Origin: Neisseriales bacterium
Lineage (GTDB): Bacteria > Pseudomonadota > Gammaproteobacteria > Burkholderiales > UBA11063
DNA length: 16,358 bases
Assembly: GCA_008017145.1 (NCBI GenBank)
Contig: SSGY01000042.1
Coordinates: 1-16,358, forward strand
Direction of reading: 5' to 3'
Within the stretch, counting starts at the first letter, position 1; the number at the start of each line of letters is the position of its first letter. The notes below the pieces were generated by a model that was given only the letters and a program-made list of their open reading frames with translations, did no database searches and had not been told where the DNA came from. The position numbers were made by a program, and so were the translations under genes. Positions 651 to 16,358 of the stretch are shown piece by piece.

Positions 651-712
651 CTACAATATAGAAAATAAAATATCCAGATAAAAATCTGGATATTTTATTT
701 TCTATATTGTAG
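651..712. terminator. Bidirectional terminator, 29-bp perfect palindrome
   Basis: The arms 651-679 and 684-712 are exact reverse complements (29 bp) around an AAAA loop (680-683). The inner part is CCAGAT/ATCTGG and the outer part is A/T-rich, giving a T-rich tail in either direction. It lies between the convergent hpf (stop 645-647) and nifJ (stop 702-704). The last codons of nifJ are inside the right arm. Confidence 0.85.
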
Positions 713-3700
713 CACTACTTGGCATATTTGCCAGATACTGATAATATTCAAAGCGACGCATAATATTTTCTTGTGCCTGCTCTAAAAACTCCGCTGCAAG
801 TTTCGCATCTTGCTGACTTACACCACGAAAGCGGTTTTCAGAGTTAAAATATTCACTCAGTGGAAGCATTGGTGCTTTACTATCCAGCTGTAGCGGTTGT
901 TTATTTTGGCTAATTAATAGTGGATTAAAGCGATAAAGCAGCCAATAGCCACTTTGTACCGCTCGGCGTTGCTGCTCAGCACCATGCGTCATATCAATCC
1001 CATGCGCGATACATTGTGCATAGGCAATTACGATTGCCGGACCATCATAAGACTCTGCTTCATTTAACGCACGGATGGCTTGCATAGGATTTGCTTCCAG
1101 TGCGATTTGAGCAACATATACATGACGATAACTCATTGCAAGCATGCCCAAATCTTTTTTGAACATATTTTTACCTGCGCTGGCAAATTTGGCAATTGCA
1201 CCCAGCGGAGTGGATTTGGACATCTGCCCACCAGTATTGGAATAGCTTTCGGTATCCAAAATCAAAAGCTTAACTTTTCTACCACTGGCAATTACATGAT
1301 CCAAGCCACCATAGCCAATATCATACGCCCAACCATCGCCACCTAATGCCCACACGCTTTTATCTAGCACATGATCAATGATTTCGAGTAGTTGTTGGCT
1401 CTCTGTGCTGGTTTGCGCTTGTAACAATGTTTTGAGCTGTAAAATACGTTGGCGTTGTTCTTCAATTTCAGCTGCGCTTTGCGGTTTCGCATTTAAAATT
1501 GCTAAAATTAACTCTTCTGCATCAGTCACTTGATGATTTTTAATGAGATTTAACAACATTAAACGTGCTTTTTCCTGCAGCTGTTCTTGTGCTAAGCGCA
1601 TACCTAAAGCAAATTCGGCATTATCTTCAAAGAGTGAGTTTGCCCATGCCGGGCCACGTCCCTGATCATTGGTGCAGTAAGGGGTAGTCGGTAAATTTCC
1701 GCCAAAAATCGAAGAGCAACCCGTTGCATTGGCAATTATTAAACGATCACCAATTAATTGGGTTAATAATTTGATATACGGCGTTTCACCACAACCAGAA
1801 CACGCACCAGAAAACTCAAATAGCGGCTGCATCAGCTGGCTACCTTTGAGGTTGTTGATTCCTCCAACAACTTCTGCGGCATGAGTTTCACTCAGTTTGC
1901 TAAAGAACGCAAAGTTTTCCCGCTCTGCAGTCAAGACTGGCGCAGGGGCAATCATATTGAGTGCCTTGCGACCATTAAACTCACCATCCGCATTTTTTTC
2001 TAAAACCGGGCAGATATTAAAGCAGGCATCGCAGCCAGTACAATCTTCGGGGGCAACTTGCAATGAGTATTGTTTATCCTGAAAGCCTTTGATTTTAGCT
2101 TTCTCATGTTTAAAGCTCGGTGGAGCTGCAGCTAATTCGTCTAAAGCAAACACTTTGCTACGAATTGCAGCATGTGGGCAAACTAAGGTACATAGCCCAC
2201 ATTGAGTGCATAATGTCTGATTCCATTCGGGGATTTTGGCTGCAATATTCCGCTTTTCATATTTGGAAGTTGCACTTGGCCATGCTCCGTCATCCGGCAA
2301 GCTTGATACTGGAAGCTGGTCGCCCTGAAGTTTAAGCATTGGCGCGACAATTTTTTGCACAAAAGCACTCGCATCAGCACTAATCGGATTAGACATCGGA
2401 ATGCTACTCGTTACCTGATCTGGTAGATTAACTTCTTCGATTGCAGCAAGAGCAGAACCAACTGCTGCAATATTTTGCGCAACTACGTCCGCACCTTTAC
2501 GCGCATAAGTTTTTTGGATAGATTCTTTGATTGCACCGATTGCTCGCTCAAGTGGCAAAACTTGGCTCAACGCAAAAAATGCGCATTGCATAATCGTGTT
2601 AATTCGTTTACCAAGCTGATGTTGTGCAGCAATTTTATGTGCTTGGACATTGTATAAATGGATTTTTTTAGTAATTAATTGTGCTTGAAGCTGCTGAGGT
2701 AATTGTGCCCAGAGTTCACTAGCATTATATGAGCTAGCCAGCAATAGAGTAGCACCCTCTTCGGCATCAGCTAAAATATCATATTTGGACACAAAACTGA
2801 AATTATGGCAGGCAATAAAATTAGCTTTTTGGACTAGATAACTGCTTTGAATGGCTTGTTTGCCAAAGCGTAGGTGCGAAATGGTATAAGAACCTGATTT
2901 TTTAGAGTCGTATTCAAAAAAACCTTGTACCGCCAAATCACTATGTTCACCAATAATTTTGATTGAGTTTTTATTGGCGCTAACTGTACCATCCGAGCCC
3001 ATGCCGTAAAATTTACCACGGAAGTTATCCAAACACTCACTAGTAAAATTGATATCATAATCCAAACTAAGGTGAGTTACATCATCGTTGATTCCAACCA
3101 CAAATTTACGTTTTTGCTGTGTTTTGTTAAGTGACAAGTTATCAAAAACAGCTTTAACCATCGCAGGGGTAAATTCTTTGGAACTTAGTCCGTAACGCCC
3201 ACCGATAATATTAGGTAATTGTTTAAATGGAGCTTTGTCAGTTTCCCAAGCTTCAACTACTGCTGTTTTAATATCCAGATAGAGCGGTTCACCCAACGAA
3301 CCAGATTCTTTGGTACGGTCTAATACCGCAATTGCCTGCGTAGTTATTGGTAACTGACTGATAAAATCTTCGGCATAAAACGGACGATATAAATGAATTT
3401 TAATTGCGCCAACTTTTTCACCCTGTTGATTGAGTTTGGTAACGGTTTCATTAATGGTTTCACACGCAGAACCCATGGCAATAATTACTCGCGTTGCACC
3501 TGCAGCACCATAATATTCAAATGGCAGATAATTGCGACCAGTAACTTGAGCAAGGCGCTGCAAGTTATTTTTAATTATACCTTGAGCTTCTTGATAATAA
3601 CGATTACCAGCTTCACGTCCTTGAAAAAAAACATCCGGATTTTGTGCTGTACCTAAAATGTGTGGATTATCTGGTGTTAAACGTCGGCTACGGTGCGCCA

Positions 3701-4298
3701 GAACTGCTTCATGATTAATAAATTGTTTAATCGTCGCAAAATCAATAACTTCGATTTTATTGAGCTCATGTGACGTACGAAAACCATCAAATGCCAACAT
3801 GAATGGAATCCGTGATTCTAAGGTTGCATTTTGCGCAAGCAAAGATAAATCCATTACCTCTTGAACATTGCTGGCAAATAAAATTGCGAAGCCAGTATTT
3901 CTGGCAGCCATTACATCCGAGTGATCACAAAAAATAGATAAAGCGTGGCTGGCAATTGTTCGTGCAGTTACATAAAAAACAGTTGGCGTTAATTCTCCAG
4001 CGATTTTATGCATATTGGGAAGCATTAAGAGTAGGCCTTGTGATGCGGTAAAGGTTGTACTCAATGATCCAGCGGCCAAGGCACCATGAACAGTAGCAAC
4101 AGCTCCAGCTTCCGATTGTAATTCTGTAACGGAAGGAATTTGTCCCCAGATATTGGTTTCGCCATTGGCGGATTTTTCATCGGCAATTTCGCCTATCGTT
4201 GATGAGGGGGTGATTGGATAAATTGCAATTACTTCATTCGTTGCATGAGCAATATAGGCTGCCGCTGCATTACCATCCATTACCTGAAGCTGTTTCAT
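702..4298 (-). CDS. nifJ: Pyruvate:ferredoxin/flavodoxin oxidoreductase
   Basis: This is a single-chain PFOR of 1198 residues, the usual length. It converts pyruvate and CoA to acetyl-CoA and CO2 and reduces ferredoxin or flavodoxin. Domains appear in family order. The N-terminal pyruvate-binding domain carries IAIYPITPSS (about 24-33), QSEAGAVATVHGA and SQGLLLM. Two ferredoxin-type 4Fe-4S motifs follow at C697/C700/C703/C707 and C753/C756/C759/C763. The C-terminal thiamine diphosphate domain has GGDGWAYDIGYGG (about 986-998). The proximal cluster ligands are probably C833, C836, C861 and C1097, as in crystallised PFORs. The ATG at 4296-4298 aligns with known N-termini. The gene appears monocistronic, with its own extended -10 promoter and the palindromic terminator at 651-712. 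The enzyme is usually oxygen-sensitive, so microaerobic or redox-related use is likely, though the window does not show it. No frameshift or missing ligand was seen. Confidence 0.97.
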   Translation of the reverse strand: MKQLQVMDGNAAAAYIAHATNEVIAIYPITPSSTIGEIADEKSANGETNIWGQIPSVTELQSEAGAVATVHGALAAGSLSTTFTASQGLLLMLPNMHKIAGELTPTVFYVTARTIASHALSIFCDHSDVMAARNTGFAILFASNVQEVMDLSLLAQNATLESRIPFMLAFDGFRTSHELNKIEVIDFATIKQFINHEAVLAHRSRRLTPDNPHILGTAQNPDVFFQGREAGNRYYQEAQGIIKNNLQRLAQVTGRNYLPFEYYGAAGATRVIIAMGSACETINETVTKLNQQGEKVGAIKIHLYRPFYAEDFISQLPITTQAIAVLDRTKESGSLGEPLYLDIKTAVVEAWETDKAPFKQLPNIIGGRYGLSSKEFTPAMVKAVFDNLSLNKTQQKRKFVVGINDDVTHLSLDYDINFTSECLDNFRGKFYGMGSDGTVSANKNSIKIIGEHSDLAVQGFFEYDSKKSGSYTISHLRFGKQAIQSSYLVQKANFIACHNFSFVSKYDILADAEEGATLLLASSYNASELWAQLPQQLQAQLITKKIHLYNVQAHKIAAQHQLGKRINTIMQCAFFALSQVLPLERAIGAIKESIQKTYARKGADVVAQNIAAVGSALAAIEEVNLPDQVTSSIPMSNPISADASAFVQKIVAPMLKLQGDQLPVSSLPDDGAWPSATSKYEKRNIAAKIPEWNQTLCTQCGLCTLVCPHAAIRSKVFALDELAAAPPSFKHEKAKIKGFQDKQYSLQVAPEDCTGCDACFNICPVLEKNADGEFNGRKALNMIAPAPVLTAERENFAFFSKLSETHAAEVVGGINNLKGSQLMQPLFEFSGACSGCGETPYIKLLTQLIGDRLIIANATGCSSIFGGNLPTTPYCTNDQGRGPAWANSLFEDNAEFALGMRLAQEQLQEKARLMLLNLIKNHQVTDAEELILAILNAKPQSAAEIEEQRQRILQLKTLLQAQTSTESQQLLEIIDHVLDKSVWALGGDGWAYDIGYGGLDHVIASGRKVKLLILDTESYSNTGGQMSKSTPLGAIAKFASAGKNMFKKDLGMLAMSYRHVYVAQIALEANPMQAIRALNEAESYDGPAIVIAYAQCIAHGIDMTHGAEQQRRAVQSGYWLLYRFNPLLISQNKQPLQLDSKAPMLPLSEYFNSENRFRGVSQQDAKLAAEFLEQAQENIMRRFEYYQYLANMPSSATI

Positions 4299-4336
4299 TT
4301 TTTTACGCTTTCTGTTACAATATGAATTAAACCATT

Positions 4337-4345
4337 ATTATAACA
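4337..4345 (-). promoter_or_regulatory. Candidate nifJ promoter (extended -10)
   Basis: Read on the minus strand, 4345 to 4337 is TGTTATAAT, an extended -10 with a perfect TATAAT. No good -35 lies upstream, which is usual for extended -10 promoters. The leader would be about 32 nt. Confidence 0.5.
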
Positions 4346-4392
4346 TTGATATGCGTTTGCTTCCCAAACTAACATTATTAATTATATGGTTA

Positions 4393-4404
4393 ATTATCGA
4401 TAAT
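4393..4404. promoter_or_regulatory. 12-bp palindrome upstream of nifJ, possible operator
   Basis: ATTATCGATAAT is a perfect 12-bp palindrome about 50-60 bp upstream of the candidate nifJ -10. The position suits an activator site, but the sequence matches no FNR box (TTGAT-N4-ATCAA) and I cannot name a regulator. In A/T-rich DNA such a palindrome could be chance. Confidence 0.2.
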
Positions 4405-4504
4405 GCGCAGAATATTTTGCTAAAAAAATGTCTCTTCGCTAACTACTAAATTATATTATGTCATGATAGAATTGGTTTATTAATATAACTTAAAAGCTAA
4501 TATC

Positions 4505-5116
4505 TTAGTTTACATCAAAAATAAAAGCGTCATAAAATCCACAACTCCCACCGTTATTACACTGACGTGAATAATATGCATTTATATAATCAGCAATTTG
4601 TCCAAGATTATTACTTTGACTGGAGCTTGACGAAATACAAGATTCAGAAATTTTACCAACTTCGTCATAAAATTCAAATTTGATACTGCTGGTCCACATT
4701 GATTGTATAACACAGCCAGTTCCCTGAAAACTAAATTTATTGCACAAGTAATAGCTTGACTGATTATTAGTTGTATAGTATCCTTGTAGTGGATCAACCG
4801 AGCCACTAATTGAATAACCAGTCAAATAAACATTACATTGCGGTAGCTGATAGAATGAAACTTGCAGCTTATTTAGTAACGCATCATCATGGTTAAAGAC
4901 AAACGAAAGCTGCTTAGGCCATCCAGAGCTCTGAGCAGGCGATTCAGAACTAAAGCTAAGTATTGCAAAAAAGTTCTTAAGTTCGTCATCAACAGGTGGT
5001 GAGGGAGTCGGGCTAATCGTTGGACTTGGCGTAGGGTTGTCTCCCCCTCCTCCACTGCCACAGGAAATTAGACCAGAAATAGTTACTATTAATGTAAAAT
5101 AAATCAAATTTTTCAT
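4505..5116 (-). CDS. Small six-cysteine lipoprotein, paralogous to the N-terminal domain of the neighbouring RCC1-repeat lipoprotein
   Basis: This is a predicted lipoprotein of 203 residues and unknown function. The N-terminus is a hydrophobic signal peptide ending in the lipobox LISC (Cys19). A Gly run and a Pro/Ser/Thr-rich spacer (about 20-45) then tether a globular domain to the membrane. That domain (about 85-195) has six cysteines at 94, 125, 135, 160, 186 and 192. They match in order and spacing the six cysteines in residues 98-201 of the adjacent large lipoprotein, with shared local sequence (GYYTTNNQSSYYLCN here, GTYYTSDASNQYLCN there). Disulfide bonding in the periplasm or at the surface is likely. 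The gene lies 30 nt after the stop of the large lipoprotein gene, with AAGAG before the ATG, so co-transcription is likely. No homologue of known function is recognised. Confidence 0.8.
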   Translation of the reverse strand: MKNLIYFTLIVTISGLISCGSGGGGDNPTPSPTISPTPSPPVDDELKNFFAILSFSSESPAQSSGWPKQLSFVFNHDDALLNKLQVSFYQLPQCNVYLTGYSISGSVDPLQGYYTTNNQSSYYLCNKFSFQGTGCVIQSMWTSSIKFEFYDEVGKISESCISSSSSQSNNLGQIADYINAYYSRQCNNGGSCGFYDAFIFDVN

Positions 5117-5146
5117 TATTACTCTTATATTATGTAAAATATAAAT

Positions 5147-8100
5147 TTAATTAACTAATGTTGGAATATTCTTATTAACACCATCACCTGTACCTAATTG
5201 TCCAGAAAAATTATCTCCCCAACAGTAGCGCTTACCAGCATTGACTCCACTGGCTGCTATCGCACAAGCATAATTATTGCTGGTCCACACTTGACCAAAA
5301 GCACTTACTCCTGATGGCATCGTTACTGAAGTTGGAACATTGACATCGCTACTTGCACCGTTACCAATTTGTCCACTTGTGCCAAGTCCCCAACAGTAAA
5401 CTTTACCTGCACTTTCGCCACTACCGGCAAGCGCACAACTAAAATTAGGGTTAGTTGAAACCTGACTAAAGCTATCTACTCCTGAGGGCATCGTTACTGA
5501 AGTGGGAACATCAACATCACCATTTGCTCCATTACCAATTCTTCCACTACCACCTGCTCCCCAGCAGTAAACTTTACCAGCACTTTCGCCACTACCTGCA
5601 AGCGCACAACTAAAATTAGTATTAGTTGAAATCTGACTAAAACTATCTACTCCGGAGGGCATCGTTACTAAAGTTGGAACATTTACAATACTACTAGCTC
5701 CATTACCAATTTGTCCACTTGTGCCACTTCCCCAGCAGTAAACTTTACCTGCGTTCGTACCACTACCGGCAAGCGCACAACTAAAATTATCATTAGTTGA
5801 TACCTGACTAAAACTATCTACTCCTGAAGGCGTCGTTACTGAAGTTGGAACATTTACAGCACTATTCGCTCCATTACCAATTTGTCCACCTGTGCCACCT
5901 CCCCAACAGTATACCCTACCAGCATTTACACCACTACCGGCAAGCGCGCAACTAAAACTGGTATTAGTTGATACCTGACTAAAGCTATCTACTCCTGAAG
6001 GCGTCGTTACTAAAGTTGGAACATTGACACTACTATTTGCTCCATTACCAATTCGTCCATTAGTACCAGCTCCCCAGCAGTAAACTTTACCTGCGTTCGT
6101 ACCACTACCTGCAAGCGCACAACTAAAAAGAGAATTAGTCGATACCTGACTAAAACTATCTACTCCTGAAGGCATCGTTGCCTGAGTTGGAACATTTACA
6201 GTGCTATTCTCCCCATTACCAATTTGTCCAGTTGTGCCAGTTCCCCAGCAGTAAACTTTACCTGCGTTCGTACCACTACCAGCTATCGCGCAACTAAAAC
6301 TAGCATTAGTTGATAGCTGGTTGTAAGTACTAACACCTTCTGGCAGTTGGCTGGAAAGTGGAGCAGAAACTCCTGCACTTCCCATAGAAGAAACATTCAA
6401 GTTATTACCCCAACAGTAAACTTTACCTGTATTCCTGCCACTACTTGCTATCGCACAACTAAAATTATTGTTTGTTGAGATCTGAATAGAACTCTCCACT
6501 CCAGAGGGCATCGTTGCCTGAGTTGGAACATTGACAGTGCTACTAGCTCCATTGCCAATCTGTCCAATTGTGCCAACTCCCCAGCAGTAAACTTTGCCTG
6601 CGTTCGTACCACTACCTGCAAGCGCACAACTAAAACTGCTATTAGTTGATACCTGACTAAAACTATCTACTCCCGATGGCATCGTTGCCTGAGTTGGAAC
6701 ATTTACAGTGCTATTCGCCCCATTACCAATTTGTCCACTTCCGCCAGTTCCCCAGCAGTAAACTTTACCTGCGTTCGTACCACTACTAGCAAGCGCACAA
6801 CTAAAACTAGCATTAGTTGAAATCTGACTAAAACTATCCACTCCTGAAGGCATCGTTGCCTGAGTTGGAACATTTACAGTGCTATTCGCCCCATTACCAA
6901 TTTGTCCACTTGTGCCAAGTCCCCAACAGTAAACTTTACCTGCACTTTCGCCACTACCGGCAAGCGCACAACTAAAATTAACATTAGTCGATACCTGACT
7001 AAAACTATCTACCCCTGAGGGCATCGTTACTAAAGTAGGAACATTGACATTGCTAAATGCGCCATTACCAATTCGTCCATTAGAACCTGATCCCCAGCAA
7101 TAAACTTTGCCAGCACTTTCGCCACTACCTGCAAGCGCACAACTAAAACTAGAATTAGTCGATACCTGACTAAAACTATCCACTCCTGAAGGCATCGTTG
7201 CCTGAGTTGGAACATTTACAGCACTATTCGCTCCATTACCAATTTGTCCACTTGTACCAATTCCCCAGCAGTAGACTTTACCTGCGTTCGTACCACTACC
7301 GGCAATTGCACAGCTAAAGTTAGTATTAGTCGAGACTTGACTAAAGCCATCTACTCCGGAGGGCATCGTTACTGAGGTTGGAACATTGATATTACTATTT
7401 GCCCCATTACCAATTCTTCCATTTGAGCCAGTTCCCCAGCAGTAAACTTTACCTGCGTTCGTACCACTACTAGCTATCGCACAACTAAAACTGCTATTAG
7501 TTGATACCTGACTAAAGCCATCTACTCCTGCTGGCATCGTGACCGGAGTAGGAACATTTACAGCGCTATTCGCCCCATTGCCGATTTGTCCAGCTGTGCC
7601 AACTCCCCAACAGTAAATTTTACCTGCGTTCGTACCACTACCAGCTATCGCACAGCTAAAACTAGCATTAGTCGATACCTGACTAAAACTTTCAACTCCA
7701 TCAGGCATGATCGCTGGATATATCACATATCCATTACCAATAGCACCATTTGTTGGAGCTCCCCAGCATTCAAGATTATTATTCGAACTTTCGTTTAGAT
7801 AACAACTATTCGCAGCAGTAGCTGACGAATATGCTATTGAAAACGAATTTATACCAACTCCACTCGTTAAGTAGCTTGTTGAATAACCACAATTGCTACT
7901 GCTACAAGCTACTGGATTCTGCGGATCGCTATAATTTGCTGTCGCTTCATAACCATTGCCGTTAAACTGGTTATATAGGCAAAGAGACCTTGATGATGAA
8001 CCATTCGTAAAATTATAGATTATCTGCATCGATTTATAATCACCAGCCTGAGCACCAGCTAATGCTCCACTACATCCACTACGCGAATTATAATTGTATT

Positions 8101-8488
8101 GATTACATAAATATTGATTTGATGCATCGCTAGTATAGTATGTACCAGCTTGCATTGTTACACCGCCATTAAAAGATGTAAGCGCTACTTGATTATTGCA
8201 AACTGTATCGTTGTAATAGCCTACAACTATTGATGATAAACTAACTGGTGATGCAACATAAATACTTGTTTGATTCCCATTACTAGCAAAATTCTTCAGA
8301 TCCAGCAAGCTTTTCAAATTATTAAACTGATATTTAGCATTGTTCTCAACTGGAATATAATTTAATCGGCCGATATAGCCTTCTAGATTTACACTTGTGG
8401 TATTTGTACTCACATTTGCATTATTACCACTATTACATGATGTCAATAATAATATTAAACCAATCAATTTACATAATCTCTGCATCAT
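5147..8488 (-). CDS. Large RCC1-repeat lipoprotein with a six-cysteine N-terminal domain
   Basis: The protein is 1113 residues if started at ATG 8486-8488. A TTG just before and another ATG just after are alternatives; AAGG about 5 nt upstream favours an ATG. Residue numbers here count from the TTG at 8491. A signal peptide ends in the lipobox LTSC (Cys19). A globular domain (about 75-205) has cysteines at 98, 129, 140, 171, 196 and 201. After a divergent repeat (about 214-265), 15 tandem units of about 57 residues run to the C-terminus. Each unit carries FSCA, then GKVYCWG, GQIGNG or GRIGNG, and VPT, which is the RCC1 beta-propeller blade signature. The two cysteines per unit could form disulfides. 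Unit 8 is short and degenerate and divides the array into 7+7. RCC1-like propellers usually bind proteins; the partner and role are unknown. The gene starts 17 nt after the 54-aa peptide gene. Confidence 0.9.
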   Translation of the reverse strand: MMQRLCKLIGLILLLTSCNSGNNANVSTNTTSVNLEGYIGRLNYIPVENNAKYQFNNLKSLLDLKNFASNGNQTSIYVASPVSLSSIVVGYYNDTVCNNQVALTSFNGGVTMQAGTYYTSDASNQYLCNQYNYNSRSGCSGALAGAQAGDYKSMQIIYNFTNGSSSRSLCLYNQFNGNGYEATANYSDPQNPVACSSSNCGYSTSYLTSGVGINSFSIAYSSATAANSCYLNESSNNNLECWGAPTNGAIGNGYVIYPAIMPDGVESFSQVSTNASFSCAIAGSGTNAGKIYCWGVGTAGQIGNGANSAVNVPTPVTMPAGVDGFSQVSTNSSFSCAIASSGTNAGKVYCWGTGSNGRIGNGANSNINVPTSVTMPSGVDGFSQVSTNTNFSCAIAGSGTNAGKVYCWGIGTSGQIGNGANSAVNVPTQATMPSGVDSFSQVSTNSSFSCALAGSGESAGKVYCWGSGSNGRIGNGAFSNVNVPTLVTMPSGVDSFSQVSTNVNFSCALAGSGESAGKVYCWGLGTSGQIGNGANSTVNVPTQATMPSGVDSFSQISTNASFSCALASSGTNAGKVYCWGTGGSGQIGNGANSTVNVPTQATMPSGVDSFSQVSTNSSFSCALAGSGTNAGKVYCWGVGTIGQIGNGASSTVNVPTQATMPSGVESSIQISTNNNFSCAIASSGRNTGKVYCWGNNLNVSSMGSAGVSAPLSSQLPEGVSTYNQLSTNASFSCAIAGSGTNAGKVYCWGTGTTGQIGNGENSTVNVPTQATMPSGVDSFSQVSTNSLFSCALAGSGTNAGKVYCWGAGTNGRIGNGANSSVNVPTLVTTPSGVDSFSQVSTNTSFSCALAGSGVNAGRVYCWGGGTGGQIGNGANSAVNVPTSVTTPSGVDSFSQVSTNDNFSCALAGSGTNAGKVYCWGSGTSGQIGNGASSIVNVPTLVTMPSGVDSFSQISTNTNFSCALAGSGESAGKVYCWGAGGSGRIGNGANGDVDVPTSVTMPSGVDSFSQVSTNPNFSCALAGSGESAGKVYCWGLGTSGQIGNGASSDVNVPTSVTMPSGVSAFGQVWTSNNYACAIAASGVNAGKRYCWGDNFSGQLGTGDGVNKNIPTLVN
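5150..7696 (-). repeat. Tandem repeat array, 15 units of about 171 bp (RCC1 blades)
   Basis: Counting from 7696 down to 5150, fifteen units of the pattern V-D-S-F-S-Q-V-S-T-N ... M-P-S-G follow one another. Thirteen are exactly 57 codons (171 bp), unit 8 is 55 codons and the last is 53 codons. The same stretches recur almost unchanged in many units on the DNA level, for example the ones encoding FSCALAGSG and GKVYCWG. Such similarity allows unit gain, loss and gene conversion and may cause assembly errors. Confidence 0.92.
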
Positions 8489-8505
8489 CAATACCTTATT
8501 ACAAA

Positions 8506-8670
8506 TTATGATAAAAAACCGCCACCTTGGCTCTCAAGAGCATTGGGACCACCACCTTCAATTACATCAGCACAAAACAATTCAGTAACTTTTGGTGAGG
8601 CATAGCTCAATTTGGCTTCTGTTTTTATCAACTCGACTTGAGGAATATTTGTATTCAATTGTTTCATCAT
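8506..8670 (-). CDS. 54-residue Gly-rich peptide, candidate modified or secreted peptide precursor
   Basis: The gene encodes 54 residues from tandem ATG codons (8668-8670 and 8665-8667) and ends at TAA 8506-8508. A strong ribosome binding site AGGAGAGG lies at 8673-8680. It is 5 nt before the first ATG and 8 nt before the second when measured from AGGAG, so either could be used. The N-terminal half is polar and leader-like (MMKQLNTNIPQVELIK). The middle contains SYASPKVTELFCADVIEGGG, and the C-terminus has a second Gly triplet before a terminal FLS. A 'Y-x-S-P-x-V-x-x-L' segment followed by a Gly-rich tail is common in short ribosomally made peptide precursors. No maturation enzyme or transporter is visible in the window, so the precursor role is inference. 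The stop is 17 nt before the RCC1 lipoprotein ATG, so the genes are probably one operon. I do not recognise a named family. Confidence 0.72.
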   Translation of the reverse strand: MMKQLNTNIPQVELIKTEAKLSYASPKVTELFCADVIEGGGPNALESQGGGFLS

Positions 8671-8710
8671 AACCTCTCCTTCTTATAATAATAGCAACAT
8701 TAAACGTTTT

Positions 8711-8716
8711 ATTATA
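8711..8716 (-). promoter_or_regulatory. Candidate -10 box of the peptide-lipoprotein operon
   Basis: A perfect TATAAT reads on the minus strand from 8716 to 8711, in CTACTATAATAAAACG. No good -35 is seen at 16-18 bp. Transcription would start near 8704 and give a leader of about 34 nt before the peptide ATG. The stretch 8671-8922 holds this element, the divergent grpE promoter and no clear gene. Confidence 0.4.
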
Positions 8717-8856
8717 GTAGAATCCATAACAAATGCACGAATAAATTCATTCACCTCACTTGAAATAGTTTTTTCCATAATCTTTCAATTTGCCATCACT
8801 GAAACAACCACAATACAACATTTTATAAGTTAATATAAAATATAGTCTAAAGCTGC

Positions 8857-8887
8857 CTTGAAAAATAAGTTTCATGCACTATATACT
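8857..8887 (+). promoter_or_regulatory. grpE promoter, sigma-32-like overlapping sigma-70-like
   Basis: CTTGAAA at 8857-8863 equals the heat-shock sigma-32 -35 consensus. After 13 bp, CACTATAT (8877-8884) partly matches the heat-shock -10 consensus CCCCATNT. The same DNA also reads as sigma-70, with TTGAAA (8858-8863), an 18-bp spacer and TATACT (8882-8887). A heat-shock promoter before a chaperone cofactor gene agrees with the known regulation of grpE in proteobacteria. Confidence 0.55.
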
Positions 8888-8922
8888 ATGACATTGGTAT
8901 TTAATTTTACGAAAGTATAAAG

Positions 8923-9483
8923 ATGGAAAAGCAACAAACTACACAAGAATCAAATGGAGCAACTCAAAACACGGCAGCAGAAAACCAAAATGCTGAGAAT
9001 TTTACCGAAGTTTTAGAAGAAATCGTTCAGGAAGAAACTAATCAGGTTTTAAAACTAGAACAAGAACTAGCAGAATTAAAAGATACTAATTTACGGTTAA
9101 TTGCAGAAATGCAAAATACGCAACGCCGGGGTGCAGAAGAAACCAAAAAAGCGCGTGATTATGCGATCAGTAATTTTGCCAAAGAAATAATCACCGTTAA
9201 AGACTATCTCGAAATGGCACTTAAAGATCAGTCTGGTAATTTTGAGATGTTAAAAATGGGTGTTGATTTAACCTTGCAACAATTAATCAAAGTTTTTGAA
9301 GCGCATCAGATTAAAGATATAAATCCACAAGTTAAAGAAAAGTTGGATGCTAATCTACATCAGGCAATGAGTGTGGTTGAAGAGCATGAGCAAGAAACCA
9401 ATACCATTGTCAGCGTTATGCAAAAAGGCTATTTACTCAATGGTCGGGTACTGCGTCCAGCCATGGTCACTGTAGCTAAATAA
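8923..9483 (+). CDS. grpE: Nucleotide exchange factor GrpE
   Basis: GrpE is a homodimeric cochaperone that releases ADP from DnaK during protein folding and the heat-shock response. The 186-residue product has the family layout. A polar, disordered Gln/Asn/Glu-rich N-terminus (about 1-30) is followed by a long coiled-coil helix with LEQELAELKDTNLRLIAEMQNTQRR (shown only in part: ELAELKDTNLRLIAEMQ) and then RGAEETKKARDYA. The C-terminal beta domain ends in the GrpE signature GYLLNGRVLRPAMVTVAK. The start is ATG 8923; the ribosome binding site is weak (GAAAG at 8911). The gene appears monocistronic, with a terminator at 9490-9516. dnaK and dnaJ are not in the window. Confidence 0.96.
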   Translation: MEKQQTTQESNGATQNTAAENQNAENFTEVLEEIVQEETNQVLKLEQELAELKDTNLRLIAEMQNTQRRGAEETKKARDYAISNFAKEIITVKDYLEMALKDQSGNFEMLKMGVDLTLQQLIKVFEAHQIKDINPQVKEKLDANLHQAMSVVEEHEQETNTIVSVMQKGYLLNGRVLRPAMVTVAK

Positions 9484-10248: not shown

Positions 10249-11916
10249 ATGACTGAGCAATTACCTCTTAATCTGAACCGCTCTTGGTGGTGGTTGATTA
10301 TTCTATTATTACTAATTAATGCTTGCGGGATGTTTTCGCCAGTATTGAACAGTAACGATGCTTATTTTTATGCCGTTATTAGTAAGACGATGGTAAGCAA
10401 TCATGACTGGATAAATCTCTATTATGCTAGTCAGGATTGGTTAGATAAGCCACATCTGCCATTTTGGTTAACCGCATTATCATTTAAGATCTTTGGTATT
10501 TCTGCTTTTGCCTATGTGTTACCAGGGTTTATTTTTCATTGTATCGGTGCTATCTATACCTATCGTTTGGGTAAATTGCTTTATTCAGAAGCAACTGGAA
10601 TTGTGGCTACATTAATTTATGTTAGCAGTTTACATCTACTCCTATCCAGTATGGATATCCGTGCGGAAGCATTTCTATTAGGTGAAATTGTTTCAGCCTG
10701 TTACTATTATTTGCGCTATGACCGTATTGGGGGAATAAAAAATCTGCTGTTAGCCAGTATATTTACTGGGCTAGCTTTAATGACTAAAGGCTTATTTGTC
10801 GTTGTCACGATTTTTAGTGGTTTAGTTGCAATGTGGCTATATAGTGGTGAATTGCGTAAGATAATTCAGCCCAAATGGTTGCTGGCTTACGCTTTAAGTC
10901 TACTGGCAACGCTACCAGAGTTAATTTGTCTCTATGTGCAATTTGATCTTCATCCTGAAAAACTCGTTTTTGGACAGCATCAAGTGTCAGGAATCAGCTG
11001 GTTTTTCTGGGGTAGTCAATTTGGACGCTTTTTTAATAGTGGTCCGATTGTCAATAATCATGGCAATCCAGGGTTTTTTATTCATACTTTCTTATGGGCG
11101 TTTTTGCCGTGGTCTTTGCTGTTTATCGCCAGCCTTATTGCAGTATGTCGCTGCTTTAAGGCTGAAGTAACTACACAGCGAGCAATATCAATCTATTTAC
11201 AAAGCAGTTTCTGGCTGACATTTATTATGTTTAGCGCTACCAAGTTTCAGCTTGATCATTATACCAATATTATCATGCCATTTGCGGCAATTATTGTTGC
11301 TAATTATATAGTTAATCAAGCTTCTAAGCTATCTGTGATTGTCAAAATTCAGCAAGGACTAACATTCCTGATTTTGTGTTTGAGCCTTGCGATAAGTATC
11401 TTCTTTTTTAGAGCTAGTTGGTTAATAATCAGTGCATTGATTCCGACTCTGATTCTGGGGTATTCTGTTTTTCAGCGTAGTAAAATCTCTGTGGTTAAGT
11501 GGATTTTAGCTTTGCCAGCTTTGGCGGTGGCTTCGAGTTTTATCGCATTGATGCTGGTTAATGCTTTCGTCTACCGCAGCTACGATGCAGGATATAATAT
11601 TGCTCAGTATTTAGAAGGTAAACCAGTTGCGACAGTATATAATCTAGAAGTTCCGGGATTGATAAATAATCTGGAGTTCCATTCTGATTTGCCAGTGTCA
11701 GAAGCGCATCTGCCTTTGCCGAATAATTATCCATATTATCTTACAATCAAAAATGATAGTCTATTTCAATTAGAAAGTTATAACTATGAAAAATTAGCTA
11801 CATTTAATGAGTTGGAAATGACTAAATTTATTCCAGCAATGTTGAGCGCAAATAAATATCAACATAGTTTAATTGTGATTGATTTAGTAAAAATTACAGG
11901 TCTACGAAACAATTGA
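10249..11916 (+). CDS. ArnT/PMT-like integral membrane glycosyltransferase
   Basis: This 555-residue inner-membrane protein resembles the ArnT/PMT_2 (GT83/GT39-type) transferases, which move a sugar from a polyprenyl-phosphate donor to lipid A or another acceptor at the outer face of the membrane. About a dozen hydrophobic segments cover residues 13-450, starting with WWWLIILLLLINACGMF. The first periplasmic loop has the family pattern NSNDAYFYA with an acidic residue at Asp37, then DWLDKPHLPFWLTALSFKIFG. MTKGLF lies near residue 180. A hydrophilic C-terminal part (about 455-555) is probably periplasmic. The acceptor and the sugar are unknown, and no aminoarabinose synthesis genes lie nearby, so I do not call it arnT. 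There is no clear ribosome binding site; with a 3-nt gap after the phosphatase gene, translational coupling is likely. Confidence 0.85.
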   Translation: MTEQLPLNLNRSWWWLIILLLLINACGMFSPVLNSNDAYFYAVISKTMVSNHDWINLYYASQDWLDKPHLPFWLTALSFKIFGISAFAYVLPGFIFHCIGAIYTYRLGKLLYSEATGIVATLIYVSSLHLLLSSMDIRAEAFLLGEIVSACYYYLRYDRIGGIKNLLLASIFTGLALMTKGLFVVVTIFSGLVAMWLYSGELRKIIQPKWLLAYALSLLATLPELICLYVQFDLHPEKLVFGQHQVSGISWFFWGSQFGRFFNSGPIVNNHGNPGFFIHTFLWAFLPWSLLFIASLIAVCRCFKAEVTTQRAISIYLQSSFWLTFIMFSATKFQLDHYTNIIMPFAAIIVANYIVNQASKLSVIVKIQQGLTFLILCLSLAISIFFFRASWLIISALIPTLILGYSVFQRSKISVVKWILALPALAVASSFIALMLVNAFVYRSYDAGYNIAQYLEGKPVATVYNLEVPGLINNLEFHSDLPVSEAHLPLPNNYPYYLTIKNDSLFQLESYNYEKLATFNELEMTKFIPAMLSANKYQHSLIVIDLVKITGLRNN

Positions 11917-15208: not shown

Positions 15209-16358
15209 TTACCTAAGAACAACTTGCTTATCACTAAAAACCAAATATTGGATATTAGTCAATGTTTTTACTCCATCTATACCACTTACAACCGTAATGC
15301 CATTTGCCGTGCCTATCGCATATAAGCTTGAGCTTAATTCAAAAACTACACCATTATACCCACTACCACCATCAATAATATCATCACCAGAATAAGGATA
15401 AAATAGATCATTACCGCTGCTACCATACATCTGATCATTAGTTGAAGTGCCATTAATTCTACCGCCTGCTTCGGTTATCACCAATGGTAATACACCTGTT
15501 GGAATAGCCTGTTGTGCTACACTGCCGCCATTACCGCCATTCCAGTAAATCATGCTGTAGCCAAGATCAACATTATCACGTAAATCCATAAAAATAGCAC
15601 TTGGATAGGATTCATTGCCATAATTGTTATACACAGGAGATGAATATAAATCTTGTGCTAGATAGCCACTAGACTTGCTCCAGCCAGCAGGAAATACCGC
15701 TGATTCAAATCTTGCAGCAATCTGCTCAGTAGTTTGATCAGTAGCATTACTTGATTTGATGATATATACATTGCCCCACTGATCTGTCACAAAGAAACGT
15801 AGAATCGGATTTCCATTCTTATCATTTTTAGTAAATAAAATTAACTGATTCTTATTAATCGAAGAATATTTTACCTGAGCTGGCGGTACATACACACCTG
15901 TTTGCCCTGCTTGCCAGCCGTTAACAGGTTGTGGAGCAGGATATGCGGAAGACTCAAATGGCCAGATATAACTGATATTTTGAACGATCAAACCCCAAGT
16001 GTGCCCCTGACAGTCTGTATAAGGGAGAAGTGGACCTGCTGCTGCGTTTGGACTGCCTAATGTATTGGCATAGTCAAATACAGCATTACGAGGCGTATTT
16101 TGTACCCAACTTTCACCACAATTAAATGCTCTAAACTCTTCATCGCTAGCGATTGGATTAGAACCATAATCAATATAAACATAGACAAAACCTTGGAAAT
16201 TAGAACCGATATCTCCGGTATATGCAACCTCATAGCCACTTTTAGCTTCTGTGCTTTTATACCCAGCTGACTCTGCCGCAGTAATTGAAGATGTAACATT
16301 AAATGGATTACTCGTTGCTGAACTAACCCCACTAGCATTAGCTGCTAAAGTATAACCA
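15209..16358 (-). CDS. RTX-type secreted protein, C-terminal part (5' end outside the window)
   Basis: The minus-strand frame ending at TAA 15209-15211 is open all the way to 16357, giving at least 382 residues. A TTG at 15989-15991 that looks like a start is therefore internal. The most N-terminal visible part (GYTLAANASGVSSATSNPFN) resembles the end of a bacterial Ig-like domain. A middle domain with CGESW and TDCQGHTWGLIVQNISY is unrecognised. Near the C-terminus, at about 15356-15454, are RTX calcium-binding nonapeptides (NDQMYGSSGNDLFYPYSGDD, then IIDGGSGYN). The tail with ITVVSGIDGVKTLTNIQYLV and FSDKQVVL matches the C-terminal module found in RTX proteins exported by type I systems. 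It is likely an extracellular protein secreted by an ABC-type exporter; none is visible here. Its enzymatic or adhesive role cannot be told from this fragment. Confidence 0.85.
   Translation of the reverse strand, partial: GYTLAANASGVSSATSNPFNVTSSITAAESAGYKSTEAKSGYEVAYTGDIGSNFQGFVYVYIDYGSNPIASDEEFRAFNCGESWVQNTPRNAVFDYANTLGSPNAAAGPLLPYTDCQGHTWGLIVQNISYIWPFESSAYPAPQPVNGWQAGQTGVYVPPAQVKYSSINKNQLILFTKNDKNGNPILRFFVTDQWGNVYIIKSSNATDQTTEQIAARFESAVFPAGWSKSSGYLAQDLYSSPVYNNYGNESYPSAIFMDLRDNVDLGYSMIYWNGGNGGSVAQQAIPTGVLPLVITEAGGRINGTSTNDQMYGSSGNDLFYPYSGDDIIDGGSGYNGVVFELSSSLYAIGTANGITVVSGIDGVKTLTNIQYLVFSDKQVVLR

Follow-up and report, generated by a model that had tools for sequence, protein, structure and literature searches.

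The DNA analysed here, referred to as the window, is a stretch of 16,358 nucleotides from a Neisseriales bacterium. Its minus strand carries, in this order, a short gene encoding the 54-aa product MMKQLNTNIPQVELIKTEAKLSYASPKVTELFCADVIEGGGPNALESQGGGFLS, the gene of a lipoprotein with RCC1 repeats (14 stretches matching Pfam PF00415, 402.9 bits vs a cut-off of 21.7), the gene of a second, shorter lipoprotein, and a pyruvate:ferredoxin oxidoreductase-like gene (PFOR, 702-4298); a GrpE-like gene starts at 8923 on the plus strand, these last two having been named by eye (Table 1). The short gene opens with a tandem ATG, and its product shows YASPKV at residues 23-28, one cysteine (C33) and glycine triplets at residues 39-41 and 49-51. 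All these features, together with the ribosome binding site, are as described in the original prediction made from the sequence. The stop codon is separated by 17 nt from the ATG of the RCC1 lipoprotein gene (8488) on the same strand, with a TTG one codon 5' of it (8491), and no terminator-like site was found between the two genes, the scan of 4299-8922 having returned a single site at 7023-7010.

Table 1. Features of the precursor locus, with positions in the window
Feature	Positions	Strand	Evidence
Lasso-peptide precursor gene (predicted), 54 aa + stop	8506..8670	-	ORF, homologues, core and leader rules
Ribosome binding site AAGGAG	8676..8681	-	5 nt 5' of the ATG
Leader peptide (predicted), residues 1-38, ending in Ile(-2) Glu(-1)	8557..8670	-	boundary predicted from the 16-residue spacing to the motif Tyr and from Thr/Ile/Val at -2 in 14/14 precursors
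YASPKV, a YxxPx[LIV] leader motif	8587..8604	-	putative recognition motif of the RRE protein B1; function from the available text of PMC10368454
Core peptide (predicted) GGGPNALESQGGGFLS, 16 aa, predicted ring Gly1-Glu8, tail SQGGGFLS	8509..8556	-	core rule, dN/dS
Codon of Glu46 (core Glu8), predicted isopeptide acceptor	8533..8535	-	acid at this offset in 13/14 precursors
RCC1-repeat lipoprotein, 1113 aa from ATG	5147..8488	-	Pfam RCC1, E 2.6e-123; LTSC lipobox by eye; shared N-terminal domain; 16 CWG motifs
Shared N-terminal domain (NTD) of the lipoproteins	7799..8395	-	alignment; 24 matches in 8/23 family genomes; model with mean pLDDT 81
203-aa lipoprotein, consisting of the NTD alone	4505..5116	-	alignment; 202-aa counterpart in G005 (L107 10435-11043), 3' of the RCC1 lipoprotein
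Three-gene cassette segment	4404..8856		missing at the syntenic L002/G002 site (90 bp there); blastn, ORFs

The precursor and the two lipoprotein genes are missing as a block from the PFOR-GrpE gap of the relative G002 (locus L002), where the surrounding DNA is 80-90% identical to the window. In G005, the RCC1 lipoprotein and the 202-aa NTD lipoprotein lie at another genomic site, with insertion-like sequence at the break (by eye). Identity between the window and G005 reaches 93% for the NTD, 74% for the whole lipoprotein, 50% for the precursor and 80% for GrpE; taking into account that the lipoprotein value is below that of GrpE, identity alone does not show a recent transfer, and the mobility of the cassette is suggested by its different genomic sites only. 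Since the search for terminal repeats at the cassette ends gave a lone 10-base inverted match, no type of mobile element is claimed.

Sequence comparison indicates that the 54-aa frame is a real gene. A search of 5.8 billion proteins with the single precursor sequence gave two relatives at E <= 10, namely P0002, 96% identical over the 54 aa, and P0003, which differs in its tail. Compared with the G005 homologue, the 16-codon core shows dN 0.09 and dS 0.57, and residues 20-54 dN 0.30 and dS 0.96; compared with the G012 homologue, the core shows dN 0.44 and dS 0.87, all of these values being drawn from few sites. The existence of database relatives and the low dN/dS of the core argue that the frame is more than a chance ORF. 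In addition to the two database proteins, 13 homologous precursors were found in six relatives. The 54-aa peptide matched no Pfam or NCBIfam family, and the whole window gave no Rfam match at gathering score; 8 stretches of viral contigs (searched with the peptide) and 92 of genome contigs (searched with the peptide alignment) were retrieved, none of which was confirmed.

A query made by joining proteins of the window served to find relatives and gave 25 loci, 16 of them leading to the genomes G001-G016. With seven more, the family sample comprises 23 genomes; as these are mostly small draft assemblies whose completeness is not told, absences from them are weak and the genomes are not independent. 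A first profile, built from the peptide and two relatives, matched 4/16 genomes at E <= 10, clearly in G005 (E 2e-10) and weakly in G012 (E 0.0017), the two others, above 0.4, being uncounted. The G005 peptide, ending in IIE|GGGPFALESQGGGLLS, precedes the start of a lipoprotein resembling that of the window; 3' of the G012 peptide, which ends in LTK|GGGPNISESQGGGQFS, lies the gene of a lipoprotein whose repeats look kelch-like (by eye; no Pfam match). Two further G012 precursors, with cores SNANSGDD... and FMADPGTD..., lie just 5' of an Asn-synthetase-like cyclase gene. Accepted precursors (E <= 0.1 list) are present in 6/23 family genomes (G002, G003, G004, G005, G012 and G013), and among 300 genomes sampled from the order in only one, G002, a member of the family.

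Conformity with the rules for core and leader led to the acceptance of two weak-scoring precursors of G005, namely G005_C23 (E 0.1, then 5.1e-17 once included in the profile) and G005_C53 (E 0.156), which adjoins a cyclase-like gene. The first-profile matches with E 0.385 to 6 (G005:C27, G013:C175, G002:C18 and G013:C29) and the later-profile matches with E 0.0098 to 0.4 (G013:C83, G314, G013:C54, G271, G002:C1:303951 and G057) were left uncounted, and none of them matched the pattern scan. Including them, 9/23 genomes would match at E <= 0.5, the added ones being G057, G271 and G314, whose matches contain internal stop codons or lie inside a 726-aa frame.

The 13 loci of the six relatives and the window make up a set of 14 precursors, in which core position 1 was defined as residue 16 after the motif Tyr. 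The motif YxxPx[LIV] is present in 13 of the 14 (G002_C31 has Leu replacing Tyr), the window having Y23, P26 and V28; in the window, YxxPxV is followed by eight residues and then by Ile(-2)Glu(-1). Position -2 is occupied by Thr in eight precursors, by Ile in five and by Val in one. The Ile of the window departs from a strict Thr rule and agrees with the published substitutes Ile and Val. An Asp or Glu stands at core 8 in 13/14 precursors, a count never reached in 20,000 trials in which residues were permuted within cores (mean 1.79, maximum 9), and which is not free of selection because most precursors were found with profiles containing the core; G013_C236 was found through a leader-and-length pattern without an acid requirement. 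The sole exception is the G004 precursor, with the acid at core 9. Core length varies from 14 to 19, and 13 of the 14 end in Ser. In the window, both glycine triplets fall within the core, which also ends in Ser, while Cys33 is a leader residue common to some homologues only. The polar half noted in the original prediction corresponds to the predicted leader, and its YASPKV fits the RRE-recognition motif.

In 0.86 Mb of fetched loci, counted with their overlaps, the feature pattern selected 13 distinct ORFs, as compared with 2 in first-order random sequence of 1.95 Mb; this shows specificity and not enrichment, as the loci had been chosen for such genes. A larger profile retrieved 18 database proteins at E <= 1, many being the same loci. 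Two of these, P0009 and P0014, are of the G004 type, with the acid at 9, and two others, P0003 and P0019, break the core rule. P0019 looks like a frameshifted P0016 (by eye). P0003 keeps residues 1-41 with two substitutions, followed after GGG by an unrelated tail that has no acid at core 8; a frameshift of the window sequence was rejected by eye, and it may represent a hypervariable core or an assembly chimera. Frame 7164-7352 of L063 and P0017 have very similar leaders and different cores, in which the acid at 8 and the terminal Ser are conserved; this is the typical precursor pattern.

The relatives encode lasso-peptide enzymes, comprising a PqqD-type protein (B1), a transglutaminase-like peptidase (B2), an Asn-synthetase-like cyclase (C), an HprK-like kinase, a nucleotidyltransferase and an ABC exporter, instead of the YcaO, radical SAM and ABC peptidase partners suggested in the original prediction. 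PF13471 (B2) exceeds its cut-off in 6/16 relatives and in 0/7 of the other family genomes, that is, in 6/23; in 14 control genomes it gave a match in three and exceeded the cut-off in one. The genomes with B2 are the same six that have accepted precursors, an overlap with a random chance of 1 in 100,947. The NCBIfam lasso_biosyn_B2 model gives 80.4 bits in G003 and 86.6 bits in G002 (cut-off 33). For the four B1 proteins scanned, the best match is the lasso PqqD model, below the NCBIfam cut-off, with the HPr-rel-A PqqD model TIGR04353 also scoring below its cut-off, and the G003 protein matches a solved lasso PqqD chaperone and TbiB1. The C proteins score best against lasso models, under the NCBIfam cut-offs (G004, 143.3 bits vs 525), and among solved structures the G004 protein matched nothing but a hydroxyamidotransferase at E <= 0.1. 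Four C proteins were examined (G003, G004, G013 and the second of G012); all of them retain SGGLDSS and are without the Cys2 found in AsnB. W.S[KR]CL and [AS]HAW are retained in both B2 proteins examined, and we take these C and B2 motifs to have catalytic meaning. LHGS...GxxGxGKS...DD is present in all three kinases examined (G002, G003 and G004). An asparagine synthase adjoining a G005 precursor was considered as a lasso cyclase and discarded, being a true AsnB (585.8 bits vs a cut-off of 499; N-terminal MC).

In G004, the precursor, an RCC1-type lipoprotein, C, the kinase and B1 follow each other on one strand, the lipoprotein gene overlapping that of the precursor. G003 has, on one contig, a precursor and an RCC1-type lipoprotein up to the contig end and, on a second contig, RCC1-like repeats at the start followed by C (Asn_synthase), an HPr-kinase-like protein, B1 (PqqD), B2 (Transglut_core3), a nucleotidyltransferase (NTP_transf_5) and an ABC exporter. 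A kinase, B1, B2 and a cyclase piece are present in the close relative G002. No kinase match was obtained in the 8.7-kb contig of G013. In G001, which shares the flanks of the window with 88-97% DNA identity, neither B2 nor a precursor was found, and GrpE is also absent from this assembly.

The genes for B1, B2, C and the kinase were not detected in the window (tblastn, E <= 1e-6), nor by the same search within ~4 kb (L109) to 8 kb of the precursors of L039, L060, L062, L063, L064 and L109, bounded by contig ends at L039 and L062; the reach of tblastn is limited, since it missed the cyclase piece of L065, an NCBIfam match. Four of these stretches (L060, L063, L064 and L109) belong to G005 and G002, so that distance from the enzymes is not unusual for a precursor. 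In L064, the G002 precursor (7234-7353) lies ~3 kb from a tyrosine recombinase-like ORF (10526-11728, by eye), and its surroundings are perhaps a mobile region.

The link with a giant RCC1 lipoprotein, regarded as unusual in the original prediction, recurs beyond the window, as RCC1-type lipoproteins lie beside precursors in relatives. An NTD lipoprotein gene adjoins 7/14 precursors, and the domain is common to these seven genes and to the 203-aa gene. The lipoprotein gene follows the precursor immediately and in the same orientation in the window, G005_C38, G012_C71a, G005_C39, G004 and G003, and it is divergent from the precursor, at 303 bp, in G013. The C-terminal part is of the RCC1 type in the window, G004 (61% identity over the alignment) and G003 (by eye), and of other types in G012 (kelch-like, by eye), G013 (weak DUF1554, below the cut-off) and G005_C39 (resembling G013, by eye).

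The NTD has 24 matches in 8/23 genomes: 22 in the six B2 genomes and one each in G179 and G006, which have no B2 (G179 is also without a precursor match). The chance that all six B2 genomes fall within the eight NTD genomes is 0.00028. A precursor lies beside 6/24 of the matches, and the pattern scan of the fetched flanks, which misses the G004 type, found none at the other 18, so that the NTD is not tied to lasso precursors alone. Of these 18, one probably represents the remaining part of the gene that begins 3' of G005_C38. Transposase-like sequences were seen by eye at L107 14321-14495 and L039 16822-16986, where the G005 RCC1 lipoprotein gene splits over two contigs. Among 300 genomes sampled from the order, with at most 10 candidates scored per genome, the NTD was found in three (G002, G179 and G006), all of the family; a protein database search with the NTD alignment retrieved six proteins whose organisms are not given, and restriction of the domain to the family is therefore not proven. 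The same search placed a 203-aa protein, marked as that of the window, on a contig of 66,907 bases, so that more sequence of the strain seems to be available. A moderately confident structure model of the NTD (pTM 0.77) gave no solved-fold match at E <= 0.001.

Taking into account the core and leader rules and the association with B2, the class put forward in the original prediction, that of modified-peptide precursors, was right and can be refined: the gene very probably encodes a lasso-peptide precursor. Its processing is proposed by analogy with relatives, since the window has no maturation genes. Thus, B1 would bind YASPKV in the leader, B2 would cleave after Glu38, and C would activate the side chain of Glu46 and link it to the Gly39 amine; the resulting ring of eight residues would have the tail SQGGGFLS threaded through it. 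The HprK-like kinase may phosphorylate the C-terminal Ser54, and the ABC exporter would release the peptide. The calculated monoisotopic masses are 1446.674 Da for the linear core, 1428.663 Da for the lasso and 1508.630 Da for its phosphorylated form. These enzymes would act in trans from another locus of the strain, as the layout of some related genomes suggests.

Alternatively, the window may hold an orphan lasso precursor, which arrived with the lipoprotein cassette in a strain without lasso enzymes and stays unprocessed. The lack of enzyme genes within 16 kb, the absence of B2 in G001 and G179 and the empty syntenic site of G002 point in this direction; however, the low core dN/dS relative to G005, the kinase, B1, B2 and cyclase piece of the close relative G002, and the four G005 and G002 precursors in whose stretches the same search finds no such enzymes make it unlikely. 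Another class of modified peptides, with a different chemistry that employs a PqqD-type RRE protein plus an HprK-like kinase, might also be considered, and the divergence of the C proteins from the NCBIfam lasso cyclase model and the score of TIGR04353 are consistent with this. Nevertheless, B2 exceeds the lasso cut-off, and the acid, placed at core 8 by a constant offset, and the Thr, Ile or Val at -2 are lasso features (as given in the available text of PMC10368454), so that another class appears very improbable. That no product has been seen and that the window lacks maturation genes would also suit an unmodified small protein or signal peptide merely resembling a precursor, an explanation that we hold to be scarcely credible against the co-occurrence with B2 in the same six genomes and the G004 operon with C, kinase and B1.

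The pairing of precursors with NTD lipoproteins is recurrent, and its function is inferred. Most likely, the lipoprotein acts at the outer membrane as a partner of the mature peptide, with a role in its binding, display or reception, and a working partnership between the two has, in our judgement, even chances. The precursor is the first gene of a cassette (precursor, RCC1 lipoprotein and NTD-only lipoprotein) found at different sites in different strains. A broader model, tentative and rather doubtful at present, is that a central set of B1, B2, C and kinase matures scattered precursors, several in cassettes with their own lipoprotein, of the propeller type or another, binding the threaded peptide at the cell surface, as a matched ligand-receptor (or ligand-display) pair between cells.

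The closest known system is the bsf cluster of Bradymonas sediminis (genes A, B1, B2, C, D, K and N), which, according to the available text of PMC10368454, has a validated Ile(-2) lasso leader with YxxPxL at -17 to -12 and the ring acid at 8. It shares with the family of the window the split B1/B2, C, D, the kinase K, the nucleotidyltransferase N, the leader motif, Ile(-2) and the acid at core 8. The motif Tyr stands at -17 in bsf and at -16 here, the kinase target is Ser3 in bsf whereas the candidate here is the C-terminal Ser, and NTD lipoproteins lie beside or inside the precursor operon only here. Paeninodin, ThcoA/SyanA and pseudomycoidin (PMC9266682, available text) also have a tailoring kinase with a His-Lys-Asp-Asp motif and a conserved C-terminal Ser, and pseudomycoidin a nucleotidyltransferase gene. 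In that text, the kinase PadeK modifies the C-terminal Ser, highly conserved in clusters with such a kinase, and lipoproteins are not mentioned. Unlike in those systems, several precursors here lie apart from the enzymes, and NTD lipoproteins accompany half of the counted set. The lipoprotein of the window has RCC1 repeats in common with the beta-propeller proteins of PF00415, and differs from them in its lipobox, its NTD without a solved-fold match (E <= 0.001) and the position of its gene 3' of a lasso precursor.

FG-GAP repeat proteins are another type of propeller. One of them borders the bsf cluster, its authors presuming no involvement (PMC10368454, available text), and a link with propeller proteins might be wider than the family of the window. 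Full-text searches of open-licence literature gave no match for 'lasso peptide' with RCC1 or with 'orphan precursor', and for 'lasso peptide' with FG-GAP only the Bradymonas paper; as these searches covered open-licence papers only, they do not show absence in print.

What phosphorylated lasso peptides do in nature is, to our knowledge, not settled, and the NTD lipoprotein family, whose genes adjoin half of the precursors counted and form part of the G004 operon, offers a directly testable candidate partner. The present set extends lasso precursors, including some with Ile(-2) leaders, to a family to which Neisseriales/Neisseriaceae assemblies belong. It also suggests that part of the precursors are located apart from their enzymes, where mining beside enzymes alone would miss them. 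As a minor observation, the end of the window (15209-16357) holds a protein fragment that runs off it, with one RTX calcium-binding repeat match (Pfam E 2.3e-05).
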